Assembly: GCA_903926465.1 (NCBI GenBank)
Contig: CAIYJE010000095.1
Span: 1-64,000, forward strand
Source: an uncultured Planctomycetales bacterium
GTDB lineage: Bacteria > Planctomycetota > Planctomycetia > Isosphaerales > Isosphaeraceae
DNA length: 64,000 nt
Direction of reading: 5' to 3'
Part shown: positions 2,338 to 13,807 of the stretch, one piece after another
Position numbering within the stretch: position 1 is the stretch's first letter
How the letters are laid out: every line of letters begins with the position of its first letter
Program-made: the position numbers and the translations under genes
Notes under the pieces: generated by a model
Databases searched by the model: none
Seen by the model: only the letters and a program-made list of their open reading frames with translations
Told to the model about the DNA's origin: nothing

Positions 2338-3684
2338 TTAGCTCAGGCCCAGTCTCTGGCGGTGGTACGCCAGTCGCTGGTGGACATCCATGCGAGAGAA
2401 GTCAGGTAGGCCATCGGCCCGTTGCGGGAACCCACTGGTGCGTGTTTCTACAGACTGGAGCGGGTTTGCCACAACCGGCCTGAGTGACGACGACTCGGTC
2501 ACCAGCCCGTGATGGCCGTTGCGAGATGGGTACGCGTAAGCCGGAGCGGCAACCGCCTGCGGGAAGGGCAGGGCTGGTGCCGGCGGCGCTACCGCCACCT
2601 GTGTAACCGGCGCAGGGGCAGGAGCAGCCGGCGGCACAGCCACACGCGTGGTGGTTCCGCCATAGCTCATGGAATTTACCTGCTGCTGGAGGTCTTCTTC
2701 CAGGGAGCGGTGCGGGCGAATGTGCAAGCGTTCCAGCACCGCGTGATAGGCTTTTACAGCTTCCACCGGGCCAAGCTGGCCATCCGCAATCAACCTGAGA
2801 AACTGCACGAAGGCAAGCTGGTTCTCGGCGTTGTTGATCTTACGCCCGTACAGCGCAACCTTGGCGCCATACGTTTTCGCATCATGGAGAAGCTGGAAGG
2901 CATCTCGCGTGGTGCCGGCCGCGCCACCCAGAATTCCCACCACCAGGTGCGGGTCATACGCCACAAGTTGCTCAAGCGCACGCGGACCATGATAGACGAT
3001 CTTCAAGAAGACTGGCCGCCCGGGGCCCGCCACGCCGGCCAGCATTCTGGCAATCATGTCGTTGGTGAAGTCGGCCAGTTTTGCAGGGTCAATCACACCT
3101 GGCAAATTTGGGTCGAAGACTTCCAGGAAGTACCGGAACCCCTTGTATTCCGCCTCGCGCCGGAAGTCGTGGAACCGCTGCAGGGTCTCATAATCGAGGT
3201 CGAGCCGGTTATTAAACGTCACGCTGTAGAGACCAAGGTTGGCCCCAAGCGTTCGCTCTCCGGGCTCGCATTGCACGTGGCCGCACTGAATCTCATCAAT
3301 GCCGGCCGATCGGAATGGCCGAGCCCCCTCAGTCGCATACGTAGACCCACGGGCCAGGTGGACGTCGGTGGTATCGTTGGCCCGGGCTGCCGGCGTTATC
3401 TGCGAGTTTTCAAACAAGCGCTCTTCGATGGTCAGCTTGTAGTTTGTGGACGAAGACATGAGCATGATATCCACCAGCCCCTGACGGGTGATCTGGCGGA
3501 TCTGCTCACGATACTCGGCTAAAGTCTTGAACCGGAGTTCACCCGAATGGGCTTCCGGAGACTGACCAGGCGCACCAATACCAAACGCCATGTCGGCGTC
3601 TTTGGCGTCTGCCAGAATGAATTCCCGGCACCCGTGCGGGTTGGCGTGAATTGCCGCGAGTTTCAGATCGAGACTTTTCGGCAT
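2338..3684 (-). CDS. TIM-barrel, class I aldolase-like protein with C-terminal encapsulation-peptide-like tail
   Basis: This is the last gene of the BMC operon, starting 7 bases after the dehydrogenase stop. The start at 3684 (448 aa) is favoured because the upstream frame overlaps that gene. Residues 1-335 look like a phosphate-binding TIM barrel of the DeoC/LacD/DhnA group. FLKIVYHG (226-233) offers a candidate Schiff-base lysine, K228. ILGGAAGTTRDA (251-262) and ALYGRKI (277-283) resemble the paired phosphate-binding Gly motifs of those aldolases. Residues 345-425 are a Pro/Ala-rich linker. The last 20 residues (RMDVHQRLAYHRQRLGLS) form an amphipathic helix, the layout of BMC encapsulation peptides. 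It is therefore probably lumen cargo. The catalytic role is inferred and the substrate is unknown; it could act on a sugar phosphate of the fucose/rhamnose route. Confidence 0.7.
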   Translation of the reverse strand: MPKSLDLKLAAIHANPHGCREFILADAKDADMAFGIGAPGQSPEAHSGELRFKTLAEYREQIRQITRQGLVDIMLMSSSTNYKLTIEERLFENSQITPAARANDTTDVHLARGSTYATEGARPFRSAGIDEIQCGHVQCEPGERTLGANLGLYSVTFNNRLDLDYETLQRFHDFRREAEYKGFRYFLEVFDPNLPGVIDPAKLADFTNDMIARMLAGVAGPGRPVFLKIVYHGPRALEQLVAYDPHLVVGILGGAAGTTRDAFQLLHDAKTYGAKVALYGRKINNAENQLAFVQFLRLIADGQLGPVEAVKAYHAVLERLHIRPHRSLEEDLQQQVNSMSYGGTTTRVAVPPAAPAPAPVTQVAVAPPAPALPFPQAVAAPAYAYPSRNGHHGLVTESSSLRPVVANPLQSVETRTSGFPQRADGLPDFSRMDVHQRLAYHRQRLGLS

Positions 3685-3691
3685 TGCCACG

Positions 3692-4765
3692 TCAGGACCC
3701 CTTGCGGCCGTAGCCGCCGTAGCTTGCTGCCTGGCCGCCAAGCCCCATGGTTACACGAACCTGTCGGGGTTCACTGGCCACAGGCGTAGCAGCCGCGCGG
3801 CCAGCGTTTGGCCTACCGCCCGATTTGGCAGCCGCGTTCGACTGGTACACGGCCTCAATGGTTTCCTTGAGAACCTGGCCAGAGTGCTGAAGGGCCGAGA
3901 TTTCCTTGGGCCACAGGTCGATTTCCAGGACCTGCTCAACCCCGCCACGCCCAACCACCGTGGGAACAGAGAGGGCCACATCTCGCAGGCCATAGGCACC
4001 GTTGAGAACCGAGCCCACCGGTAGAATTCGGCGCGAGTCCAGGGCGATGGCGTGAACCACTTCCGCAATCGAAACACCCACGGCGAAGCCCGCGCCCCCC
4101 TTGAGCTTGATCACCTCCGCGCCACTTCCCTTGGTTCGCTTGAACAACTCTTCCGCCAGGGTGGGGGTCCAGCCTGGGAACTTGTCCAGGGGCAGACCGG
4201 CCGCCTGCGCCGCCGACCACACGGGGACCATGCTATCACCATGCTCACCCAGAATGGTGGCCGTAACCTGGGTGGCGGGCAACTTGAGAGCGTCGGCAAT
4301 CAAAGAGCGGAACCGAGACGAGTCCAGCGTGGTCCCCAGCCCAATCACCTGCTTGGTCGGCAGCCCAAGCTGACCGGCGGCCAGGTAGGTCAGCACGTCC
4401 ACCGGGTTGGAGACCACCAGAACAATGGCCTCTTTCTTGAGCCCAGCGGCCTTGACCTGGGCCAGAATGTCCAGGAACAAGATCACGTTGCGGTTGATCA
4501 GGTCCAGCCGGCTCTCGTCTGGCTTGCGCCTCAGGCCGGCCGTGATGCAGATCAGATCGCTCTGGGGAATCAGTTCATAAGAGCCAGACCGGATCCGCTG
4601 ATCGGCCACGAATGGCGAGCCGTGCATCAAGTCAAGCGCCTGGCCCCGCACCAGGTCGGCATTGAGGTCCAGCAGGTTGATCTCGCTCACAATCCCGCCA
4701 AGCTGGAGTGCGTAACCCGCGCAGCTACCAACCAGGCCGCCACCACCAATGATACTAACTTTCAT
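3692..4765 (-). CDS. NAD-dependent lactate/malate dehydrogenase family protein
   Basis: This is a 2-hydroxyacid dehydrogenase of the LDH/MDH superfamily (357 aa from ATG 4765). The Rossmann glycine loop is IIGGGGLVGS (5-14), and Asp33 in LLDLNADL fits NAD specificity. The catalytic His lies in GEHGDSMVP. The substrate loop reads AGLRRKPDESR: Arg80 sits where LDH has Gln102 and MDH has its specificity Arg, and Arg86 is the conserved carboxylate-binding Arg. A homologous gene in published planctomycete BMC loci is called lactate dehydrogenase, but this residue looks malate-type. A Gly/Ala-rich tail of about 50 residues (from 308) exceeds the usual length; it has no clear amphipathic helix. It lies 43 bases after the ThuA-like gene and just before the TIM-barrel gene, and is probably used for NAD(H) turnover linked to lactaldehyde oxidation. 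Confidence 0.85.
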   Translation of the reverse strand: MKVSIIGGGGLVGSCAGYALQLGGIVSEINLLDLNADLVRGQALDLMHGSPFVADQRIRSGSYELIPQSDLICITAGLRRKPDESRLDLINRNVILFLDILAQVKAAGLKKEAIVLVVSNPVDVLTYLAAGQLGLPTKQVIGLGTTLDSSRFRSLIADALKLPATQVTATILGEHGDSMVPVWSAAQAAGLPLDKFPGWTPTLAEELFKRTKGSGAEVIKLKGGAGFAVGVSIAEVVHAIALDSRRILPVGSVLNGAYGLRDVALSVPTVVGRGGVEQVLEIDLWPKEISALQHSGQVLKETIEAVYQSNAAAKSGGRPNAGRAAATPVASEPRQVRVTMGLGGQAASYGGYGRKGS

Positions 4766-4808
4766 GAGCTTGCTCCTCAGCATGAACCTGTACGTTTCAG
4801 GAATGGAA

Positions 4809-5744
4809 TCAGTGATGATTGGCTTGTTCCGCGGCGAGCCAGCGGACGGCGTTTTCCAGGACTTTCAAGGTTTCTGCCTGCGTGAATACCGGATAAGTTT
4901 CGTGGCCGGGCCGGAAGTAGAACACTTGCCCAAGCCCCACCCGCCACAGGCAACCCGAGCGGAACTGTTCTCCGGAATCCCACTTCTCTTCAAAAATCAC
5001 CACATCGGGTTCCGGCACCTGAAACGGCTCGTCATACATCTCGGTTTCGGGCAGGTCAAACGCTCTTGGCAGGCCGGCGGCAATGGGATGATTGGGACGA
5101 AGCACCGTCAAGTGGCTGGGCTTTCCGTCTTCCTGCCAGGCGCCAATGGAGCAGGCAGGCCAGAGGAGCTTGATCACCACCTCATGATCTGGGCTGAGCG
5201 AGGTCTCATAGCTTGGCGTGATCGGCGTCCCCTTCTTTCGAACCGAGTCTGGACCAGGGTCGGTCATCTCGATTCGGACCGTGCCCGGTCCAGAGCCGGC
5301 CAGGGCGGCCAGTTCAATAGCCTTTTGCATCGACTTCAACCGCATCGCCTCGATGAACGGTTTTGAAGAGAGCCCCGAGTGCAGCGGAATGAGCGCCAGC
5401 TTGCCCGCGGCAATTCTGGTCAAAATCCGCTTGGCAGTCTCGCTTGAGATCTCGCCATGCCTCAGGTGTCCCCACCAGATCAAGACATCGGCATTTTCCA
5501 GATTGTCCTGAGAGAGCCCTTGCTCAGGGTCATCAATGCCAACCGACTGGACCTCAATCCCCGGCCGTTGCGCCAGTTGCTCAGCCACCCAGTCTCCCAG
5601 GAAGCCTGGATAGGCCTGCTTCTGTTCCTTCTGGCGTTCGTCCCACACCAGCACGCGCACCGCTGTAGGGGTATCGGCGGCCCTTGCCAGATGTGGCACA
5701 GCCAGAACGAACGACAGAGCGATCAGGAAACGAGCAGCAGGCAT
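4809..5744 (-). CDS. ThuA-like secreted protein
   Basis: This is a ThuA-fold (glutamine amidotransferase-like) protein of 311 aa. The start at 5744 has AAGGAG 9-10 bases upstream and gives a clear signal peptide (MPAARFLIALSFVLAVPHLARA). Family features are VLVWDE near the mature N-terminus, DVLIWWGHLRHGEIS, LIPLHSGL and GLGQVFYFRPGHETYPVF near the C-terminus. ThuA proteins are linked to trehalose/keto-sugar handling, but their chemistry is poorly settled. It sits inside the BMC operon, between the aldolase (101-base gap) and the dehydrogenase. A predicted export signal means it cannot be a lumen enzyme, so it may handle a sugar outside the cytoplasm before uptake. Its functional link to the BMC is inferred only from gene order. 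Confidence 0.8.
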   Translation of the reverse strand: MPAARFLIALSFVLAVPHLARAADTPTAVRVLVWDERQKEQKQAYPGFLGDWVAEQLAQRPGIEVQSVGIDDPEQGLSQDNLENADVLIWWGHLRHGEISSETAKRILTRIAAGKLALIPLHSGLSSKPFIEAMRLKSMQKAIELAALAGSGPGTVRIEMTDPGPDSVRKKGTPITPSYETSLSPDHEVVIKLLWPACSIGAWQEDGKPSHLTVLRPNHPIAAGLPRAFDLPETEMYDEPFQVPEPDVVIFEEKWDSGEQFRSGCLWRVGLGQVFYFRPGHETYPVFTQAETLKVLENAVRWLAAEQANHH

Positions 5745-5845
5745 GAGCAAAAGCTCCTTGACAAATGTTCGTTGAGCGGCCATTTCAAGCCAAGGGGCTG
5801 GCACCGTGCAGGCCAGGTGCCGGCCCCCCATTCTGAAACAGCGTT

Positions 5846-6832
5846 TTAGCGAGCCTGTCCGTTCATGGCCAGCATCACCTGGTTGGTGATGCGCTGGACG
5901 AGTGTCTCAAACGCGGGGTCGTTTGCAGAAATGGCCGGCGCGGCCTGAGCGGGTGCTGGGGCCTCGGTTTTGCAACCGCAGGCATGGCTGGCGTTGGGGT
6001 CGCCGTGGGGTTCCAGCAACGAGGAGACCAGGCCAGGGCCGTCTGGGCGACCGAGCAGCTTGGGCGGAATGATGGCGTGGTGTTCTGGCTTGAACTGGGT
6101 GTACCCCTCTCGGAACATGCTGTTGCCGCAGAGGTCGCAGTTTTCCAGGCCTTTTTCAAGCCGTACGTCACGGATACCCAGGCTTGGCTTGAGCTTGAGC
6201 AGTTCCGCGGCCTTGGCGTCTGAGTAGAAATTCACAGAGCCAAGCTGCTTGGTCAGGATCAAGATCCGGCAGTAGGCGTCAATGATTTCGGTCTTGAAGT
6301 AGGCATCCATCAGGTCGGTACCGGCCGTGATCGTGCCGTGGTTCGCCAGCAGGACCACGTCGGTGTCTTTGATGTACGGGATGACCGTATCCGCAAACTT
6401 CTGTCCGCCTGGGGTCTCGTACGGGGTAATGGCTACCTCGCCCAGAAACACCTCGAACTCCGGCATGGTGCACTTCGGAATTGGTTCGTGGGCAACCGCA
6501 AAGGCGGTGGCGTGTGGCGGATGGCAGTGAACGCATGAGCGAATGTCAGGACGATGCTTCATGATGGTCAGGTGGAGCAAGATCTCGCTCGATCGCTTGC
6601 GCTGGCCTGAGAGCTGCTTGCCGTCCATGTCTACAACGCACAGGTCGTCGGGCTTCATGTAGCCCTTGGAGACTCGCGTGGGAGTACACAGCACTCGATT
6701 TTCATCGAGCCGCAGGCTGATGTTGCCGTCATTGGCGGCAGCAAAGCCCTTGTTGTAGATCCGGCGGCCAATCTCACACATTTCCTCACGAAGCTTCCAC
6801 TCGTTCATTGAGGAATTCGTATATCCAGCCAT
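5846..6832 (-). CDS. Class II aldolase (fuculose/rhamnulose-1-phosphate aldolase type) with C-terminal encapsulation peptide
   Basis: This enzyme probably splits L-fuculose- or L-rhamnulose-1-phosphate into DHAP and L-lactaldehyde inside the microcompartment. ATG 6832 lies 9 bases after AAGGAG; the ATG at 6841 abuts that site and is disfavoured. Class II aldolase signatures are present: NDGNIS (34-39), SSEILLH with catalytic-type Glu83, VHCHPPH with metal ligands His102/His104, and ANHGT with His165. The protein has 328 aa against about 215 for FucA. The extra C-terminal part holds a cysteine pair (CDLCG, 232-236), a second one (ACGCK, 284-288), an Ala/Pro linker (290-303) and a terminal amphipathic helix (305-328, AFETLVQRITNQVMLAMN) typical of encapsulation peptides. 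The BMC-P gene 51 bases upstream and the ThuA-like gene downstream place it in the BMC operon. Confidence 0.9.
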   Translation of the reverse strand: MAGYTNSSMNEWKLREEMCEIGRRIYNKGFAAANDGNISLRLDENRVLCTPTRVSKGYMKPDDLCVVDMDGKQLSGQRKRSSEILLHLTIMKHRPDIRSCVHCHPPHATAFAVAHEPIPKCTMPEFEVFLGEVAITPYETPGGQKFADTVIPYIKDTDVVLLANHGTITAGTDLMDAYFKTEIIDAYCRILILTKQLGSVNFYSDAKAAELLKLKPSLGIRDVRLEKGLENCDLCGNSMFREGYTQFKPEHHAIIPPKLLGRPDGPGLVSSLLEPHGDPNASHACGCKTEAPAPAQAAPAISANDPAFETLVQRITNQVMLAMNGQAR

Positions 6833-6883
6833 TGCGTTCATCTCCTTTTCAAGGGTATCAAGCCGTTGATTGATCGGTCTGGT

Positions 6884-7165
6884 TCAGCTCACAGTGACGT
6901 TGTCGAGAATGCAGGCGTTGTAGGCATCTATGGGTACTTTGGTTGTGCCGAAGGGGTTGGCGGCTTCCCGCCCTTCACTGAATCCGATGATTGACCCCAT
7001 GCCGGCCCCCAGTTCATCAAAGACCACGAGTTCCTCACCCCGTTGCGCTGAACCCGACCGAAGCGCCTCGAGGGGCAGCGGACGGGTAATCAGCAGCCGG
7101 CCAGGTGTCAGGTTCGCGTGGTGCCTTGAAAGCGTAACGCGTCCAATCACTTCCCCGATCCGCAT
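6884..7165 (-). CDS. BMC-P (EutN/CcmL-type) pentameric shell vertex protein
   Basis: This 93-residue EutN_CcmL family protein caps shell vertices. It begins MRIGEVIGRVTLSRHHANL, followed by GRLLITRPL, EELVVFDELGAGMGSIIGFSEG and IDAYNACILDNVTV, the usual order of the family. The start at 7165 has AGGAG 7 bases upstream. The gene begins inside the 3' end of the RpiB-like gene, overlapping it by 131 bases in another frame. It is one of three BMC-P paralogues in the operon, matching the three pentamer genes known from Planctomycetes-Verrucomicrobia BMC loci. The aldolase gene follows after 51 bases. Confidence 0.9.
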   Translation of the reverse strand: MRIGEVIGRVTLSRHHANLTPGRLLITRPLPLEALRSGSAQRGEELVVFDELGAGMGSIIGFSEGREAANPFGTTKVPIDAYNACILDNVTVS

Positions 7166-7844
7166 CGGTTTTCTCCTGCACAGGCTTTTCGAGGTCAGCC
7201 GGTACTCTGGGAGTACCATGACGCTGGTAGATTTCGGCCAGTTGAACAAGCTGAGGAGTGGACGCGTTCTGTGGCTCTAACACCAGAACGTTGGGGCTCA
7301 AATCGGTAAGTGCCCGTTGTAAGGTCAACACATCAAAAGCCGAAGCTGCCCGCACGCCAGGCACCTGGCAAGCTTTCCAGCAGGCCAGAGCGCCGGATGT
7401 GGAAACGATCAGGGCTCCACGATCCTGGGATTCGGCAGCCCAGCGGGCACCGGCTTCGGGGCTCTGGCCCAGGTCTTGCCAGGGCCTGGAGGCTAAGAAC
7501 AGGGTGCGTTGGATGGCCTGGGTTTGGGCCGTGTGCTTCTCAATCACCAGGCCCCACGTGCCAGACGGGGCCGCCGATGCCGCGCTTCCCCACTCCACGG
7601 TAATGCCGCGCTGCTTCAAAAGGTCATGGGCCAGGGGGGTTACCACGGTTCCCGGCACAACCAGAACGCGACGGACCTGTTCATCAAACGACCGCGCCTC
7701 TCGTAGCGCCAGTAACCGGCCAGGAAACGTCAGCGTGGAGGGCTCGCCAGAAGTTGGAGCCGCAGCAGGGGCGTACACACGTGCCAGTTCGGCCAGCACG
7801 GCCCTTACCGCAAACTCAACTTCTCCGGCCGTCGGGTGGTTCAT
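7035..7844 (-). CDS. RpiB-like protein of unknown function, candidate BMC cargo
   Basis: The protein has 269 aa from ATG 7844, which shares one base with the stop of the preceding BMC-P gene (TGATG coupling). Residues 1-22 form an amphipathic helix (AGEVEFAVRAVLAELARVY) followed by an Ala/Pro/Ser linker, like an N-terminal encapsulation peptide. Residues 58-84 contain RRVLVVPGTVVTPLAHDLL. Residues 140-210 resemble the core of ribose-5-phosphate isomerase B/LacAB: DRGALIVSTSGALACWK matches the 'GILVCGTG' loop, VPGVRAA matches 'NKxPGIRA', and PNVLVLEPQN matches 'NVLALG'. The catalytic Cys of RpiB appears replaced: the loop reads STSG. The last 45 residues overlap the next BMC-P gene, have unusual composition (Pro/Ala/Arg), and may reflect a frameshift or a true overlap. 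Function is unknown; sugar-phosphate binding is an inference. Confidence 0.75.
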   Translation of the reverse strand: MNHPTAGEVEFAVRAVLAELARVYAPAAAPTSGEPSTLTFPGRLLALREARSFDEQVRRVLVVPGTVVTPLAHDLLKQRGITVEWGSAASAAPSGTWGLVIEKHTAQTQAIQRTLFLASRPWQDLGQSPEAGARWAAESQDRGALIVSTSGALACWKACQVPGVRAASAFDVLTLQRALTDLSPNVLVLEPQNASTPQLVQLAEIYQRHGTPRVPADLEKPVQEKTDADRGSDWTRYAFKAPREPDTWPAADYPSAAPRGASVGFSATG

Positions 7845-8095
7845 CAGTCTGGCAGCCCCATCACACTCCATCGCCCCGGCGTATTCTTTCCGAGTAGTCC
7901 CTGCAAAACCGCGCCGTCGTTGGTTACCAGAATCCGGTCGCCGCGCCCCGCGCCCAGGCGGTCGAACACCAGCACCGGCTCACCATCAGGCGCGCCTGTG
8001 GCCATTTCCAGTTGAACCACCAGCAACCGTTCCCCCTGGAACGATGGGTGCTTCACCGTGGCCGTTGCTGTGCCGACAACCAGACCGATCTGCAT
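7844..8095 (-). CDS. BMC-P (EutN/CcmL-type) pentameric shell vertex protein
   Basis: This 83-residue EutN_CcmL protein begins MQIGLVVGTATATVKHPSFQ, then GERLLVVQLE, EPVLVFDRLGAGRGDRILVTNDG and a short tail ending SVMGLPD. Length and motif order match pentameric shell subunits. It follows the aldehyde dehydrogenase gene after 90 bases that contain a strong hairpin. Its stop codon overlaps the start of the RpiB-like gene by one base, so those two are probably translationally coupled. Confidence 0.9.
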   Translation of the reverse strand: MQIGLVVGTATATVKHPSFQGERLLVVQLEMATGAPDGEPVLVFDRLGAGRGDRILVTNDGAVLQGLLGKNTPGRWSVMGLPD

Positions 8096-8140
8096 GGCGA
8101 AAAAACCTCAGATTCACAGAGCCGCTGGGAAAATGAAAAC

Positions 8141-8178
8141 CGGGGACAGGCTCTGAGCAAGCCTCAGAGCCGGTCCCG
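8141..8178 (-). terminator. Intercistronic hairpin, possible partial terminator
   Basis: The stem pairs GGCTCTGAG (8149-8157) with CTCAGAGCC (8163-8171) around a 5-base loop. Outer pairing of CGGGGAC (8141-8147) with GTCCCG (8173-8178) extends it. On the minus strand it is followed by a U-rich stretch (GGUUUUCAUUUU). It lies inside the BMC operon, between the aldehyde dehydrogenase and the second BMC-P gene, so it may reduce rather than end transcription, or it may be a processing/stability stem. Confidence 0.6.
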
Positions 8179-8185
8179 CTGGCGA

Positions 8186-9595
8186 TCAAATGAAACGCAT
8201 GGAACCCACAATTGCGGTCCGTCTTTGACGGGTGAACGTGCTGGGCGTGGTTACCCCTTCGCCGGTTGGGCCGGCAATGGAGAACGAGCCAACGGCCGGG
8301 GCTGAGAGACCCGCCGTGCTGGGTCCGTTGACCACAAAGATTGTGCAGTTCATGATTCGACCCATCCGTTGCATGACCGCGGTGTCTCGCGAGTGCAGGA
8401 TGGCGGTATGGCCGAAGCCATGCTCAGACTGCCTGGCCAGATCAATGGCCCGTTCCACGTCGCTCACGCGGACGAACGGTACGAACGGCATCATTTGTTC
8501 TTCTTGAACGAATGGATGATCCGCGCCAGTCTCTCCGAAAAGAATTTGCGTTCCCTTGGGAATGGCCACGCCGGCGGCCTGGGCCAGAACCTCTGGGTCT
8601 TTGCCCACGAAGTCTTTGTTGACGTGTGGCTTGCGATCTTCGCCAATCACGAAGGCGGCCTTGGTGAGTGCCTCAACCTGGGTTGGGCTCAGGCGGAACC
8701 CGCCGAACCGACCCATGGCGTCTAGCAGCTTGTCAAACACCTCAGCCACGGCGAAAACCTGCTTCTCACCAATGCAGAGCAAGTTGTTATCAAAAGCAGC
8801 GCCGGCGATAATCGACTTCGCAGCCCCTTCGATACAGGCGGTGGCATCCACAACCACGGGAGGGTTTCCCGGCCCGGCCACCACCGCACGTCTAGAGCTC
8901 CCCAGCGCGGCCCTGGCCACGGCGGGCCCACCAGTTACCACCAGCAGCCTGACCCCCTTATGGGCGAACAGAGCCTGGGCGGTTTCCAGAGTTGGGGGAT
9001 GGACAATCGTAAGCAGGTTGTCGATGCCGATCGCATCCACAATGGCCCGGTTGAATCGCTGAACCCCTTCGGCGGCAATATGTTGCCCCGATGGGTGAGC
9101 ATTGAAAACCACCGTGTTTCCCGCCGCCAGCATGTTAATGGCGTTGCAGGCCAGCGTGGGCAGGCTGTGCGTGACAGGCGTGACCGACCCGATCACACCA
9201 AACGGGGCGAAGTCTGTGAGCGTGAGCCCGCCATCGCCCGAGTCTGAAAGCGTACGCAGGTTTTCAACCCCAGGGATGGCTGGAATGAAAACGTTCAGCT
9301 TGGCGATCTTGTGATCAAGCCGGCCGATTTTCGTCTCGTCTAGTTCCTTGCGGCCAAGCTCTTCGGCATGATCAAAGCAAATCTGCTTGATCACGCGAAC
9401 AGCCTTGTCGCGGTCGGCCATGGGCCGTTTCCGGAACTCCTGGAACGCCTCTTCGGCTGCGGCAACCGCCTGATCGACGGTGGAGAAAACCCCGGACGTG
9501 CCGGAAGCCTTGCCACCGGCAGGGGTACCCGGGCCTCCCATCTGGGAAAGCACCTGCTGGACGACATTACGGATCAGGTCTTCTGTCAACTGCAT
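8186..9595 (-). CDS. CoA-acylating aldehyde dehydrogenase (PduP/EutE-like) with N-terminal encapsulation peptide
   Basis: This enzyme oxidises the toxic aldehyde (lactaldehyde in the known pathway) to acyl-CoA with NAD, inside the shell. It has 469 aa. The N-terminal helix LTEDLIRNVVQQVLSQM (3-19), followed by a Gly/Pro/Ala-rich linker (20-36), is a classic encapsulation peptide. The catalytic domain has TDFAPFGVIGSVTPVTHSLP (127-146), FNAHPSG (164-170) and the nucleophile region AFDNNLLCIGEKQV with Cys274. This matches the acylating group (PduP, EutE) rather than ordinary acid-forming ALDHs. It lies 79 bases after a BMC-P gene and upstream of an intercistronic hairpin. The acyl-CoA would pass to the PduL-type phosphotransacylase at 12297-13001, which regenerates CoA. 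Confidence 0.95.
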   Translation of the reverse strand: MQLTEDLIRNVVQQVLSQMGGPGTPAGGKASGTSGVFSTVDQAVAAAEEAFQEFRKRPMADRDKAVRVIKQICFDHAEELGRKELDETKIGRLDHKIAKLNVFIPAIPGVENLRTLSDSGDGGLTLTDFAPFGVIGSVTPVTHSLPTLACNAINMLAAGNTVVFNAHPSGQHIAAEGVQRFNRAIVDAIGIDNLLTIVHPPTLETAQALFAHKGVRLLVVTGGPAVARAALGSSRRAVVAGPGNPPVVVDATACIEGAAKSIIAGAAFDNNLLCIGEKQVFAVAEVFDKLLDAMGRFGGFRLSPTQVEALTKAAFVIGEDRKPHVNKDFVGKDPEVLAQAAGVAIPKGTQILFGETGADHPFVQEEQMMPFVPFVRVSDVERAIDLARQSEHGFGHTAILHSRDTAVMQRMGRIMNCTIFVVNGPSTAGLSAPAVGSFSIAGPTGEGVTTPSTFTRQRRTAIVGSMRFI

Positions 9596-9674: not shown

Positions 9675-9992
9675 TCATGGATTTTCCGAAGAGCGGAAGA
9701 TGACCGAGCCGCCGAGGTCAACCGAGTCAACCAGGCCAATGACCACGGCGTCGATGGGTAGCTTGTCTGTTTCAGGCGTGAGCCTGGCGCTTGAACCCTG
9801 GCAAACCAGTACCATTTCACCCTGCCCGGCTCCCAGGGTATCCACCACCACAAAGGTGCGGCCGGTGGGAACCAGGCGATCTTTTGCCTTATCGTCAACC
9901 CGGTAGGGCTCCACAATGAGCAGCTTGTGTCCGGTCATGGAGGCAACCTTCTGAGTGGCCACCATACTGCCGGTCACGCGAGCAATGAACAT
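9675..9992 (-). CDS. BMC-P (EutN/CcmL-type) pentameric shell vertex protein
   Basis: This 105-residue EutN_CcmL protein has MFIARVTGSMVATQKVASM, HKLLIVEPYRVD, RTFVVVDTLGAGQGEMVLVCQGSS and PIDAVVIGLVDSVDL, then a short polar tail. It is the longest and most canonical of the three BMC-P paralogues. It begins 33 bases after the acetate kinase-like gene and precedes the aldehyde dehydrogenase gene. Confidence 0.93.
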   Translation of the reverse strand: MFIARVTGSMVATQKVASMTGHKLLIVEPYRVDDKAKDRLVPTGRTFVVVDTLGAGQGEMVLVCQGSSARLTPETDKLPIDAVVIGLVDSVDLGGSVIFRSSENP

Positions 9993-10025: not shown

Positions 10026-11225
10026 TCAGGACCCAGCCGAGAAGAGCAGGTCACGCGTTTGGCGAGCAACCACGATCTCTTCATTGGTTGGAACAACCCA
10101 GACAGGGACCCGTGAGGATGGGGTGCTGATCACCGTCTCTCCACCACGGGTTGCTTGATTCTTTTCGGTATCGAGCGAGATTCCGAACCACTCAAGATTA
10201 CGCAGGACCGCCGAGCGGATGGTGCTGGAGTTCTCTCCAATTCCGGCCGTGAAAACGATGGCGTCGGCCCCATCGAGTTCAAACAGGAACGCACCCACGT
10301 AGTGGCGAATGGACTGCACGAAGAGGTCGATGGCTAGCTGAGCGCGGGCATTGCCGGCCTCGGCGGCCTGCTCAATATCCCGCAGGTCTCGGCCTGCTCC
10401 GCCAACCCCTTCTAGCCCCGAATGATTGGCAAGTGTATTCAACGCTTGTTCAAGCGTGAGGCCGGTCTCTTTGAGGATGACCGGAAGTGCGAAGACGTCA
10501 AACTCGCCAACGCGGTTATTGTGAGGGAGCCCGGTCTGGGGGCTCATTCCCATGCTGGTGGCAATCGACTGGCCGTTGCGGATGGCACATACCGACGAGC
10601 TGCCCCCAAGGTGACAAGAGATCAGCTTGAGGTCTGTTCGGCCCAGCAGTTCGGGCATGCGCCAGGAGATGAAGCGATGGCTTGCACCATGAAAGCCCCA
10701 CTTGCGAACCCCCATGGCGGTCCAGGCGTCTGGAATCGCGTAGCGTCCGGTGGCCTCGGGGATGGTCTGGTGGAAGTCTGTTTCAAAGGCGGCCACCAGC
10801 GGCAGCGAGGGGAAGCGTTTGGCCAGGGTGCGCATGGCCTGGATGTAAGGCGGATTATGCGCGGGGGCCACGCTGGAGAATGCCTCCATGGAGGCCAGCA
10901 AAGATTCATCGACCCTGTGCACGTGGTGGTGGTCTTTACTGTGCACCGCCTTGAACCCGATGGCCGCCACTTCGCTTGCAGAGCGAAGCACGCCCACACC
11001 AGGCTCAGAGAGAGTATCCAGGCAGATTTGCATCGCCACGCCATGATCCACAATGGCCGTGGTCAGCTCTCGCTCACCGCCGGGCCAGGTAATCTTGACG
11101 CGGGCCTCAGTGGATCCGATACGCTCGACGGCCCCCCGAGCCAGTAACGGCTCGCCGGGGGCGCCCAGATCGTACAGTCGGAACTTGAAGCTGGTGCTAC
11201 CCAGGTTGGCCACCAGAATTCGCAT
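10026..11225 (-). CDS. ackA: Acetate kinase-like acyl-phosphate kinase (divergent AckA)
   Basis: This is an ASKHA-fold kinase that would convert the acyl phosphate made by PduL into acid plus ATP. The 399 aa fit AckA length. The phosphate loop NLGSTSFKFRLYDLG (7-21) replaces canonical NAGSSSLKF. FETDFHQTIPEATGRYAIP matches FDTAFHQTMP, SCHLGGSSSVCAI matches HLGNGASI, and EGVGGAGRDLRDIE and FTAGIGENSS are clear. Several catalytic-region residues differ from ordinary AckA: the 'GHRVVHGGE' segment reads GFKAVHSKD, so the acetate-binding Arg (Arg91 in Methanosarcina AckA) is Lys92, and 'LMMGTRSGDIDP' reads LPHNNRVGEFDV. No encapsulation peptide is visible. These changes suggest a different acyl group, possibly lactyl phosphate, but that is inference. 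It sits between BMC-H and BMC-P genes. Confidence 0.88.
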   Translation of the reverse strand: MRILVANLGSTSFKFRLYDLGAPGEPLLARGAVERIGSTEARVKITWPGGERELTTAIVDHGVAMQICLDTLSEPGVGVLRSASEVAAIGFKAVHSKDHHHVHRVDESLLASMEAFSSVAPAHNPPYIQAMRTLAKRFPSLPLVAAFETDFHQTIPEATGRYAIPDAWTAMGVRKWGFHGASHRFISWRMPELLGRTDLKLISCHLGGSSSVCAIRNGQSIATSMGMSPQTGLPHNNRVGEFDVFALPVILKETGLTLEQALNTLANHSGLEGVGGAGRDLRDIEQAAEAGNARAQLAIDLFVQSIRHYVGAFLFELDGADAIVFTAGIGENSSTIRSAVLRNLEWFGISLDTEKNQATRGGETVISTPSSRVPVWVVPTNEEIVVARQTRDLLFSAGS

Positions 11226-11267: not shown

Positions 11268-11540
11268 TCAACCGATAAATGCCGCGACCACCGCGGGATC
11301 GGGGCGGGGAATCACGTGGGCTGCACGCAGTTCACCAATGCGGCCAGCCGCCTCGGCCGCCGCTTCCACGGCGGCACGTACGCTGCTGACGTCGCCTCGA
11401 AAGATCACACTGACCAGGCCGCCGTCAAGCCGGATGACCGTACTTGCCAGCTCAACATTTGCAGCTTTCAACGCCGCGTCGATGGCGGTGATGATGCTGA
11501 CCAGGCCGACCGTTTCGACCAGGCCGATTGCGCCGTTCAT
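11268..11540 (-). CDS. BMC-H hexameric shell protein (third of three)
   Basis: This 90-residue BMC domain protein forms flat hexamer tiles. It reads [40 protein letters not shown], then RGDVSSVRAAVEAAAEAAGR and AHVIPRPDPAVV. The pore loop is LDGGLV, with an acidic residue before the Gly pair, unlike the other two BMC-H copies here. The usual 'ETKGL' is ETVGL. It starts 23 bases after the middle BMC-H gene and is followed, 42 bases on, by the acetate kinase-like gene. Confidence 0.95.
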   Translation of the reverse strand: MNGAIGLVETVGLVSIITAIDAALKAANVELASTVIRLDGGLVSVIFRGDVSSVRAAVEAAAEAAGRIGELRAAHVIPRPDPAVVAAFIG

Positions 11541-11563: not shown

Positions 11564-11881
11564 TCATTGGAGGAAGATGGTCAGAACGGCCGGATCTGGC
11601 CGAGGAATCACATGCGCGCTCACCAGTTCGCCAACGCGGCTTGCCGCTTCAGCGCCCGCTTCAATGGCGGCCCGCACGCTGCCCACATCTCCGCGAACCA
11701 TTGTGGTGATGAAGCCGCCACCCACCTGCACCTTGCCTGCCAGCAGCACGTTGGCCGCCTTCAGCATGGCGTCGGTCGCCTCGATCATGCCAACCAGACC
11801 CTTGGTCTCGATGAGCCCGAGCGCGTCTCCGGTGGGAGTGTACGACACCGGTCGCGAACTTTTGCTATCTGCTACGGCCAT
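11564..11881 (-). CDS. BMC-H hexameric shell protein (second of three)
   Basis: This BMC domain protein has 105 aa with a 19-residue Ser/Thr-rich N-terminal extension before GDALGLIETKGLVGMIEATD. It continues [40 protein letters not shown] and AHVIPRPDPAVLTIFLQ. The pore loop is VGGGFI. The start at 11881 has AAGGAG 7 bases upstream. It lies 15 bases after the first BMC-H gene and 23 before the third, so the three hexamer genes form one cluster near the front of the operon, as expected for the most abundant shell parts. Confidence 0.95.
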   Translation of the reverse strand: MAVADSKSSRPVSYTPTGDALGLIETKGLVGMIEATDAMLKAANVLLAGKVQVGGGFITTMVRGDVGSVRAAIEAGAEAASRVGELVSAHVIPRPDPAVLTIFLQ

Positions 11882-11896: not shown

Positions 11897-12205
11897 TTAC
11901 TTGGACGCTGGTGTGGACTTCTTGCCAAAACTGAGCACGCCCGCCAGGTCGCCGTGCGGGCGAGGGATCACCTGCACGCTAACAACCTCGCCAATCCGGC
12001 TGGCTGCTGCGGAACCGGCATCAACCGCCGCCTTCACCGCCGCCACATCTCCCACCACGAATGCCGTAACCAGGCCGCTACCGACCTTGTCCCAGCCAGC
12101 CAGCTCAACGTTGGCGGCCTTCAGCATGGCGTCCGTAGCTTCCACCAGGGCCACAAAGCCCTTGGTTTCAATCATTCCCAACGCTTCCATTGACGAACTG
12201 GCCAT
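11897..12205 (-). CDS. BMC-H hexameric shell protein (first of three)
   Basis: This is a 102-residue BMC domain protein: [40 protein letters not shown], then [20 protein letters not shown] and [14 protein letters not shown]. The pore loop is VGSGLV, the commonest motif in the family. The start at 12205 has an AGAGGT site 8 bases upstream; the frame is open to 12271, but the added residues are not part of the fold. The C-terminus has a short basic tail ([10 protein letters not shown]). It is the first shell gene after the phosphotransacylase, separated by 91 bases. Confidence 0.95.
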
Positions 12206-12296
12206 CAGTCGACCTCTCATTTCCAGAACAAAGGTAAGTAAGTCAGTTTCAGACCGTGCTTCCAACCCCATAACCCGCGGGTGATTCCTTGCTCAA

Positions 12297-13001
12297 TCAA
12301 ACGCTGGCCTTGACCAGCCGCACATTCTTGGCGTGCGGCAGGTCCAGGGCGTTTGCCTCGTCCGTATCAATGTGTACTTCAAGCTTCCAGTCCGGATTGG
12401 TTCGGACGAGCAGGTTTTTGAGCAACCCAGAGCAGGGCCCGTCTACGCTCAGGTCCATGCGGTCCAGATGTTTCACACCGTAAAAGTCGGCGTCTTTCTG
12501 ACCCATGTGAACGTGACGTTCGGCCCGGATGACCCCGTTTTCCAGCATGAGTGACCCGGCCGGCCCCACAATCAAGGCCCCCGGTGTTCCTACAATGTCA
12601 CCCGAAAGTCGCACCGGCAGATCGAGCCCCAGGCTGATCGCGTCTGTGAACGCAAGTTCCACCTGGCTGAACTTCCGGCAAGGGCCCAGAATTCGAACGC
12701 CGGGAATCATCCGCTGCCGGGGCCCAACAATGGCAATCGTTTCGTTCGAAGCAAAATCGGTGTCTTGATACAGCCGCTTCATCACCGTGAGCTGATACCC
12801 CTTGCCGAACAGGATATCCACATGCTCTTGAGTAAGGTGACAGTGTCGCGCAGAGATGTTGACCACCAGGTTGGGCGAATAGCCGGCCTGGGGATGTGCC
12901 GCCGGAGCAGGGCCCCCCGGACCTGCGCCAGCAACAAACTGCTGCTCAAGGATGTTGCGGATGATCGATTCAACCAGTGGTCGCATTGCCGCATTGCTCA
13001 T
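12297..13001 (-). CDS. pduL: PduL-type phosphotransacylase with N-terminal encapsulation peptide
   Basis: This enzyme moves the acyl group from CoA to phosphate, recycling CoA within the shell. It has 234 aa. The N-terminal helix MRPLVESIIRNILEQQF (6-22), followed by an Ala/Gly/Pro linker to about 42, is an encapsulation peptide. Two PTAC (PF06130-type) domains follow. SARHCHLTQEHVDILFGKGY supplies His zinc ligands in the first, RAERHVHMGQKDADFYGV supplies further ones in the second, and SGDIVGTPGALIVGP lies between them. It overlaps the deoR stop by 4 bases (ATGA) and has a GAGG site 8 bases before its start. It acts between the aldehyde dehydrogenase and the acetate kinase-like enzyme. Confidence 0.95.
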   Translation of the reverse strand: MSNAAMRPLVESIIRNILEQQFVAGAGPGGPAPAAHPQAGYSPNLVVNISARHCHLTQEHVDILFGKGYQLTVMKRLYQDTDFASNETIAIVGPRQRMIPGVRILGPCRKFSQVELAFTDAISLGLDLPVRLSGDIVGTPGALIVGPAGSLMLENGVIRAERHVHMGQKDADFYGVKHLDRMDLSVDGPCSGLLKNLLVRTNPDWKLEVHIDTDEANALDLPHAKNVRLVKASV

Positions 13002-13807
13002 TGTGAGTTCCTCGCCTCTTCGGGCTGGACAAGCCGGGGCTTGACGTCTGACGGGGCAACATGCAGAAGTACGCCCGCGTTCTCAATCTGACGGCGGTCT
13101 TCGGGGCTAACCCCCTCATCGACTACCAGGTGCTGAATCTTTTCCAGGCCGCAAAGCTTCGTAAGAGCCTGCTTTCCGAATTTTGTGTGATCTGCCACCA
13201 GCACAACCTGATGCGCTGATTTCATCATCGCTTGCTCGGTTTCCACCAGCAGCAAGTTGGAGTTGTAGATGCCATCGGCCATGATTCCGCCGGCACCCAT
13301 GAACAAGGTATGCACCCTGATCTTCTCCAAGCAGCCGATCGCAATGGGCCCCAGGGCAACCCCGGTTCTTGGATAAACAAAACCGCCAATCAGAATCAGG
13401 TCGGTGTCTTTGTGGGGTGCCAGAAGCTGAGCGATGGGCAGGCTATTGGTCACCACCTGCACGGTTCGGCCCACCAGCGCCTTGGCCACTTCCAATGTGG
13501 TGGTGCCGCCGTCAAGCAGCACCGTGTCTCCATCTTGAACCAGGCTCGCGGCAAATCGACCGATGGATCGTTTCTCGGCAATGGCCGTGTCGGCCCGATC
13601 TTCAAAGGCTGGCATCAGTTCGCGGGTCTCTGCTCCCACCACCGCTCCGCCGTGGGTTCGCCGGATGACGCCCCCTTGTTCAAGTGCTTCCAGGTCTCTG
13701 CGAATCGTACTCTCAGAAACCCCCACGGCCGCAACAAGATCCTCTAGCGCGGCAAAGCCCCGCTTCTGAATCAGGTCGAGCAATGTTTGACGCCGGGTTT
13801 CCAGCAC
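12998..13807 (-). CDS. DeoR-family transcriptional regulator of the BMC operon
   Basis: This 269-residue DeoR-family protein leads the operon. Its N-terminal winged helix covers residues 1-57, with recognition region LEDLVAAVGVSESTIRRDLE and the family signature GGVIRRTHGGAV. The C-terminal DeoRC sensor domain includes DGDTVLLDGGTTTLEVAKAL, VVTNSLPIAQLL, LILIGGFVYPRTGVALGP, DGIYNSNLLLVETEQAMM and VLVADHTKFGKQALTKL, a fold related to sugar-phosphate isomerases that normally senses a phosphorylated sugar. It probably represses the operon until fuculose-, rhamnulose- or a related phosphate builds up. The operon starts with its own regulator, so autoregulation is likely. A DeoR regulator is a known part of planctomycete BMC loci. 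It is divergent from mutM across a 187-base gap. Confidence 0.93.
   Translation of the reverse strand: MLETRRQTLLDLIQKRGFAALEDLVAAVGVSESTIRRDLEALEQGGVIRRTHGGAVVGAETRELMPAFEDRADTAIAEKRSIGRFAASLVQDGDTVLLDGGTTTLEVAKALVGRTVQVVTNSLPIAQLLAPHKDTDLILIGGFVYPRTGVALGPIAIGCLEKIRVHTLFMGAGGIMADGIYNSNLLLVETEQAMMKSAHQVVLVADHTKFGKQALTKLCGLEKIQHLVVDEGVSPEDRRQIENAGVLLHVAPSDVKPRLVQPEEARNSQ

Follow-up and report, generated by a model that had tools for sequence, protein, structure and literature searches.

For the breakdown of fucose and rhamnose, PVM BMCs have been credited with a single enzyme that generates the aldehyde, namely a class II aldolase. The window analysed here (the whole stretch of 64,000 nucleotides, from an uncultured Planctomycetales bacterium) holds an operon that carries this aldolase and ends in a further gene, ALD1, which the initial annotation had described as encoding an aldolase-like TIM barrel of no assigned function. 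What would a second aldolase do in such an operon, and would it act inside the shell? From the gene and its operon, the predicted fold, the conserved residues and the genomic associations, all of which were observed, we infer the activity, the substrate and the encapsulation. Our main reading, to which we give a probability of roughly 0.6, is that ALD1 is a class I (Schiff-base) ketose-1-phosphate aldolase and that the PVM version, probably encapsulated via its tail, is a second source of 2-hydroxyaldehyde.

The window operon is a Planctomycete PVM-type (fucose/rhamnose) BMC operon (Table 1). Its genes run in the order DeoR, PduL, three BMC-H, AckA, BMC-P, acylating aldehyde dehydrogenase (AldDH), BMC-P, RpiB-like, BMC-P, class II aldolase, ThuA, lactate/malate dehydrogenase (L/MDH) and ALD1. 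All of the components that mark a PVM-type locus were found (PF00596 aldolase, AldDH, PduL, AckA, L/MDH, BMC-H, BMC-P and DeoR), in agreement with the published composition of aldolase, AldDH, L/MDH, acetate kinase and DeoR (PMC4207490). The operon is intact and ALD1 closes it, as had been proposed, beginning seven bases after the end of the L/MDH gene at 3692. The reading frame 3684-2338 (-) has an ATG start and gives a product of 448 residues; because relatives share this start, with the common motif MxKSLD, a longer TTG frame from 3741 was rejected as the ALD1 gene. The host genome has a single copy. Within the operon, the RpiB-like gene (7035-7871) overlaps a BMC-P gene (6884-7249). The ThuA gene, which separates those for the class II aldolase and L/MDH, has homologues in just three other loci of ALD1 relatives (L003, L007 and L021), and the signal-peptide-like N-terminus of its product is odd for the operon of a cytosolic organelle. 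A near-perfect hairpin, TTTTTTTGGGGG-loop-CCCCCAAAAAA, lies just 3' of ALD1 at 2238-2269 and is a plausible operon-end terminator; it was not among the reports of a terminator scan.

Table 1. Features of ALD1 and its operon, with positions in the window unless another locus is named.
Feature	Position	Strand	Remark
ALD1, unnamed class I aldolase-like gene, 448 aa	2338..3684	-	last gene of BMC operon
TIM-barrel catalytic domain, residues 1-341	2662..3684	-	AlphaFold2 model
Strand-1 motif D26-A-K28-D29-A-D31	3592..3609	-	proposed general base and substrate-contact residues
E188, strand 5, invariant	3121..3123	-	proposed proton shuttle, as in LacD
K228, strand 6, invariant	3001..3003	-	proposed Schiff-base lysine
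G253-G254, after strand 7	2923..2928	-	predicted phosphate-binding motif; aligned with LsrF G226-G227
G280-R281, after strand 8	2842..2847	-	predicted phosphate-binding motif; aligned with LsrF G253-R254
Pro/Ala-rich linker, residues 342-426	2407..2661	-	mostly predicted disordered (AlphaFold2)
Conserved C-terminal helix PDFSRMDVHQRLAYHRQRLGLS	2341..2406	-	candidate encapsulation tag
Lactate/malate dehydrogenase	3692..4783	-	
ThuA-family protein	4809..5831	-	signal-peptide-like N-terminus; in some operons only
Class II aldolase (PvmN type)	5846..6841	-	PVM signature enzyme
BMC-P (EutN/CcmL) shell protein	6884..7249	-	
RpiB/LacA-like protein	7035..7871	-	weak NCBIfam match, E 6e-5
BMC-P shell protein	7844..8095	-	
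Acylating aldehyde dehydrogenase	8186..9595	-	
BMC-P shell protein	9675..9992	-	
Acetate kinase	10026..11225	-	
BMC-H shell protein	11268..11540	-	
BMC-H shell protein	11564..11881	-	
BMC-H shell protein	11897..12271	-	
PduL-type phosphotransacylase (PTAC)	12297..13001	-	
DeoR-family regulator	12998..13807	-	
CBM_4_9-containing protein	L157 8652-10259; L158 7897-9597		

No Pfam family matched ALD1 even at E 0.1, and NCBIfam assigned it to none, returning sub-threshold matches to ADH synthase alone over residues 227-313; for these two collections, the absence of an assigned function still holds. By profile, the ALD1 family is not a member of PF01791. We ran AlphaFold2 (AF2) on an alignment of 39 sequences, with the fold preset as the test of the aldolase proposal, and the prediction was indeed an eight-stranded (beta/alpha)8 TIM barrel (strands at 23-28, 73-76, 97-101, 150-156, 184-190, 226-229, 248-252 and 276-279; core pLDDT mostly above 90). 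The top structural matches to the model were all class I aldolases (VIA-align, Z 20-22), led by ADH synthase (ADHS, 2qji; Z 22.3, rmsd 3.2 over 254 residues) and including LsrF (4p2v, 21.2), sulfohexulose-1-phosphate aldolase (8tnf, 20.8), LacD (3mhg, 20.6) and YihT (7ag7, 20.2), with archaeal FBP aldolase also among the best. Foldseek agreed, with LacD as its best match (E 1.7e-10). DeoC structures were not in the 50 best fold matches, an absence that by itself excludes nothing. The initial annotation had written "DeoC/LacD-like"; the LacD or DHAP-type half of that label is the better supported and the DeoC half less so.

Sequence similarity to known aldolases is weak and confined to the C-terminal third. 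Direct searches of PDB sequences with ALD1 gave nothing useful and only a mixed-family profile reached LsrF, weakly, while an ALD1 profile had no significant match to YihT alone or FbaB alone. A profile of BMC and non-BMC relatives aligned to E. coli LsrF with E 1.3e-4, and the larger-profile score of 36.9 compares with a maximum of 21.0 in 30 shuffles and 11.8 for the reversed sequence. ALD1 is best described as representing an unnamed class I aldolase family, with a predicted fold and a probable mechanism close to those of LacD, YihT and LsrF.

Conservation points to the same chemistry. Across 123 relatives (110 Planctomycete and 13 proteobacterial sequences), 56 residues are invariant, and 29 of these sit at the C-terminal ends of strands, compared with 13 expected (p 3.5e-7). 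Strand 6 is the Schiff-base strand of class I aldolase barrels; K228, which had been singled out as a candidate Schiff-base lysine, lies within it at 226-229 and is invariant in 123/123 sequences. It matches LsrF K203 only with a one-residue gap placed after K228, and because the larger-profile alignment begins at residue 231, with K228 outside it, the equivalence rests mainly on strand position and invariance. On strand 1, D26, A27, K28, D29 and D31 are invariant in the family, and we propose D26 together with E188 as acid/base residues. The paired phosphate-binding Gly motifs suggested earlier were recovered as G253-G254 and as G280 with R281, and the residues aligned with them in LsrF, G226-G227 and G253-R254, bind the ligand phosphate (PMC2728841). 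The aldolase reading holds because of the TIM barrel, the class I aldolase matches, the invariant strand-6 lysine and the LsrF-aligned phosphate motifs. At the chosen threshold, BMC and non-BMC copies showed no fixed difference in the neighbourhood of the active site; the only such position was 55, which lies away from it.

The likely substrate class emerges from homologues outside BMC operons. A tblastn search of plasmids found proteins of about 340 residues and 37-50% identity in Rhizobiaceae and others, called "hypothetical" where annotated; homologues searched against Pfam at E 1 had no relevant family, and the idea that the rhizobial copies were IolC-type aldolase fusions (DUF2090) was dropped for want of a Pfam match. 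One type of sugar operon around them combines an ABC importer, ALD1, a PfkB kinase and a ROK regulator; several other records combine a GlpD-like dehydrogenase, FGGY kinase, importer, ALD1 and a sugar-sensing regulator, and at L122, which has the FGGY kinase, an FAD-dependent oxidoreductase occupies the GlpD position. In Lichenicola, the homologue stands beside DhaKL. Tail-less copies in Planctomycetota are likewise linked to kinases. PfkB adjoins ALD1 in L182, L184 and L190, and L164, L185, L188 and L191 have a divergent PfkB. The clearest kinase-linked locus without a tail is L172, where a D-lyxose/D-mannose isomerase (E 2.8e-47), a prokaryotic ketohexokinase (PF25270, E 1.8e-42), ALD1, an unknown protein and a GH38 alpha-mannosidase are encoded on one strand by overlapping or closely spaced genes. 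The simplest reading of this locus is a pathway from mannose through fructose and fructose-1-phosphate to DHAP and glyceraldehyde. Its unknown protein (7630-8592 (-), 321 residues), which adjoins ALD1, matched nothing in Pfam or NCBIfam. L183 has ALD1, an isomerase and a ketohexokinase, and L159 has ALD1, PfkB, a lyxose-isomerase-like protein and GH38. The kinases of L159 and L112 are just 23% identical, so the pairing of ALD1 with a kinase appears, on sequence grounds, to have arisen more than once. Such kinase and isomerase neighbours therefore indicate a ketose-1-phosphate aldolase that would release DHAP and an aldehyde.

This linkage to a ketose kinase comes from homologues outside BMC operons; the window operon itself lacks it. 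Kinases encoded in the host genome include a rhamnulokinase-like enzyme (453 bits, under the curated cut-off of 528), a xylulokinase, a glycerol kinase and a ribulokinase-like enzyme, and a search of the genome for PF25270 ketohexokinase found none. Because of the rhamnulokinase-like enzyme, rhamnulose-1-phosphate is a plausible intracellular substrate of ALD1, though one would expect the class II aldolase to act on it.

Whether ALD1 would act in the shell depends on its C-terminus. BMC cargo tags usually consist of a linker followed by a helix at the terminus, and the AF2 model of ALD1 shows this arrangement, with a helix at 434-444 (pLDDT about 92) after a disordered stretch at 342-415. The consensus of the conserved helix is PDFxxMxxxERLAYHRxRLxRxLG, and its HMM matches essentially ALD1 alone in each genome searched; a search for other proteins bearing a tail of this type gave none that was convincing. 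A C-terminal amphipathic helix on a Pro/Ala linker had been proposed, and the helix and the linker are there, with weak support for amphipathicity. The maximal 18-mer hydrophobic moment of the tail is 0.21, no better than shuffles, compared with 0.38 for a family consensus and 0.39-0.47 for the tags that AldDH, PduL and the class II aldolase carry in this operon. Unlike canonical encapsulation peptides, the tail is Arg/His-rich and of low hydrophobic moment. By analogy of layout, we regard it as a candidate encapsulation tag that probably carries ALD1 into the shell.

The tail tends to occur where BMC genes do, though not strictly. We analysed 96 Planctomycete ALD1 loci with flanks, of which 78 matched the tail HMM and 18 did not. 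BMC genes were nearby for 54/78 copies with a match and 3/18 without (Fisher p 8e-5), and a kinase was nearby for 1/78 and 9/18, respectively (p 3e-7), although both p-values are optimistic, as a short reading frame was the basis for picking the tail-less set and these loci also supplied several of the kinase queries. The three BMC-linked copies without a match (L054, L062 and L157) have shortened or divergent extensions, not missing ones. In Planctomycetota, the extension (the linker and a mostly conserved helix) is present on every full-length copy in a BMC operon and absent from 9/10 kinase-linked copies; proteobacterial non-BMC homologues also do without it. About 24 of the 78 tail-bearing copies have no BMC genes within 8 kb, satellite copies of this kind usually retaining the tail, and tail-less copies occur in PvmN-bearing genomes too. 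A search for conserved neighbours of the satellite loci found none, and a scan of viral contigs for the tail-less form gave no matches. The satellite copies at L048, L059, L063 and L162 adjoin sulfatase genes, which suggests sulfated polysaccharide degradation. The deep-branching PVM loci L157 and L158 are without L/MDH and encode, between class II aldolase and ALD1, a CBM_4_9-containing protein that looks secreted; a GlpD suspected at this position turned out to be that protein.

A quick maximum-likelihood tree was built from 85 rows of barrel sequence and rooted on Proteobacteria; most tail-less Planctomycete lineages lie near its base and four tail changes are needed, with weak deep support; one tail-less row (L170) is cut off by a contig end. 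The tree is consistent with an ancestor that was cytosolic and coupled to a kinase, that acquired its tail when it became part of the BMC, and whose descendants lost it again at least once (L184). We put forward tentatively that the organelle captured a ketohexokinase-coupled cytosolic aldolase by means of a new C-terminal helix, which would have widened the PVM range beyond L-fucose and L-rhamnose to further ketose-1-phosphates, with glyceraldehyde (from fructose-1-phosphate and the like) handled in the shell.

The proposed mechanism would run as follows. ALD1 would split ketose 1-phosphates, releasing dihydroxyacetone phosphate along with an aldehyde, with K228 forming an imine with the C2 carbonyl, GG253-254 and GR280-281 holding the C1 phosphate, and D26/E188 serving as acid/base residues. 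In non-BMC relatives, the cleavage would follow the step of a sugar kinase (ketohexokinase, PfkB, or FGGY with a GlpD-like dehydrogenase). In the PVM version, the disordered linker and C-terminal helix would carry the enzyme into the shell, where it would convert 6-deoxy-hexulose-1-phosphates to lactaldehyde or hexulose-1-phosphates to glyceraldehyde, and the AldDH, PduL and AckA of the operon would consume the resulting 2-hydroxyaldehyde. ALD1 in PVM operons is probably an accessory, second aldehyde-generating enzyme, and probably an encapsulated one.

Much of the same evidence could be accommodated by a ketose-1-phosphate aldolase that stays in the cytosol, with a tail for oligomerisation, stability or docking to the outer face of the shell and with co-transcription that just feeds sugar phosphates into the same regulon. 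Such an enzyme would explain why the tail departs from canonical amphipathicity, why many copies that bear it are found apart from BMC genes, and why the kinase/isomerase/GH38 operon at L159 keeps its tail. We nevertheless find it doubtful, given the cargo-tag layout and the presence of the extension on all full-length BMC-operon copies, as opposed to its absence from proteobacterial and nearly all kinase-linked ones.

Other chemistries on the same barrel were also weighed. ADHS and LsrF are the closest folds, and LsrF, with the same fold, is annotated as a thiolase, so ALD1 might be another kind of Schiff-base enzyme: an LsrF-like thiolase, an ADH-synthase-like transaldolase, or an epimerase working by retro-aldol and aldol steps (e.g. 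fuculose-1-P <-> rhamnulose-1-P). This is improbable in our view, since the repeated linkage to ketohexokinase, PfkB and FGGY kinases is the pattern of a simple ketose-phosphate lyase and E188 on strand 5 would, judging from sequence, resemble LacD and YihT rather than the Tyr of ADHS. An analogue of deoxyribose-phosphate aldolase (DeoC), yielding acetaldehyde and glyceraldehyde-3-phosphate, would recall the SPU-type BMCs, which pair a DeoC-type PF01791 aldolase with an RpiB isomerase (PMC8217296), and the window operon does hold an RpiB-like gene. With no DeoC match in any family search and no deoxyribose genes beside any homologue examined, we consider it very improbable. Encapsulated cleavage of ketose 1-phosphates remains our preferred reading.

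We found at least 564 relatives of ALD1 in genome contigs, conserved beyond chance; the best 80 of these all come from Planctomycetota or bin-labelled MAGs (54-73% identity). Strong matches occurred in 31/392 Planctomycetota genomes, 30 of them also with PvmN, which had strong matches in about 45 of the 392. Within the host's own class, 27/40 PvmN-bearing genomes have ALD1 and 13/40 do not; a second sample gave 180/298 genomes of the class and 41/45 of the host's own family. With ALD1 in about 60% of sampled class genomes, many such organelles would have a second input if it is a second aldolase. The experimental characterisation of PVM BMCs was done in Planctopirus limnophila. A genome that is probably from this species (G321) has a whole PVM operon with L/MDH last and no ALD1; because the experimental organism thus probably lacks the gene, a role for ALD1 could not show up there. 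This absence, the kinase and isomerase neighbours and the link between tail and BMC operon are the new observations of this study. As a pair, the tailed (BMC) and tail-less (kinase-linked) forms amount to a natural experiment in the recruitment of an enzyme as organelle cargo; the tail, if a tag, is an unusual one.

Among known systems, LsrF (3-hydroxy-5-phosphonooxypentane-2,4-dione thiolase) and ADH synthase are the main families with detectable, if weak, sequence similarity to ALD1, and they share with it the TIM barrel, the strand-6 lysine and the GG and GR phosphate motifs. ALD1 differs from them in its strand-5 E188, extra inter-strand elements, C-terminal linker and helix, and genomic setting, at about 15% structural identity. 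LacD, a tagatose-1,6-bisphosphate aldolase and the best Foldseek match, acts on bisphosphates and is 11-14% identical. YihT and sulfohexulose-1-phosphate aldolase have the ALD1 fold (Z 20.2 and 20.8) without detectable sequence similarity. YihT follows a PfkB kinase and cleaves a 6-substituted ketose-1-phosphate to DHAP and sulfolactaldehyde, the logic that we propose for ALD1 too, but it belongs to PF01791 (PMC9594981), which ALD1 does not match. The DeoC-type aldolase of SPU BMCs is likewise a BMC-associated class I TIM barrel (PMC8217296) but is a PF01791 member of another BMC type, with deoxyribose-5-phosphate as its proposed substrate. The PvmN-type aldolase of the same operon would likewise give DHAP and an aldehyde from ketose-1-phosphates; it is an unrelated class II enzyme (PF00596) and occurs in genomes without ALD1.
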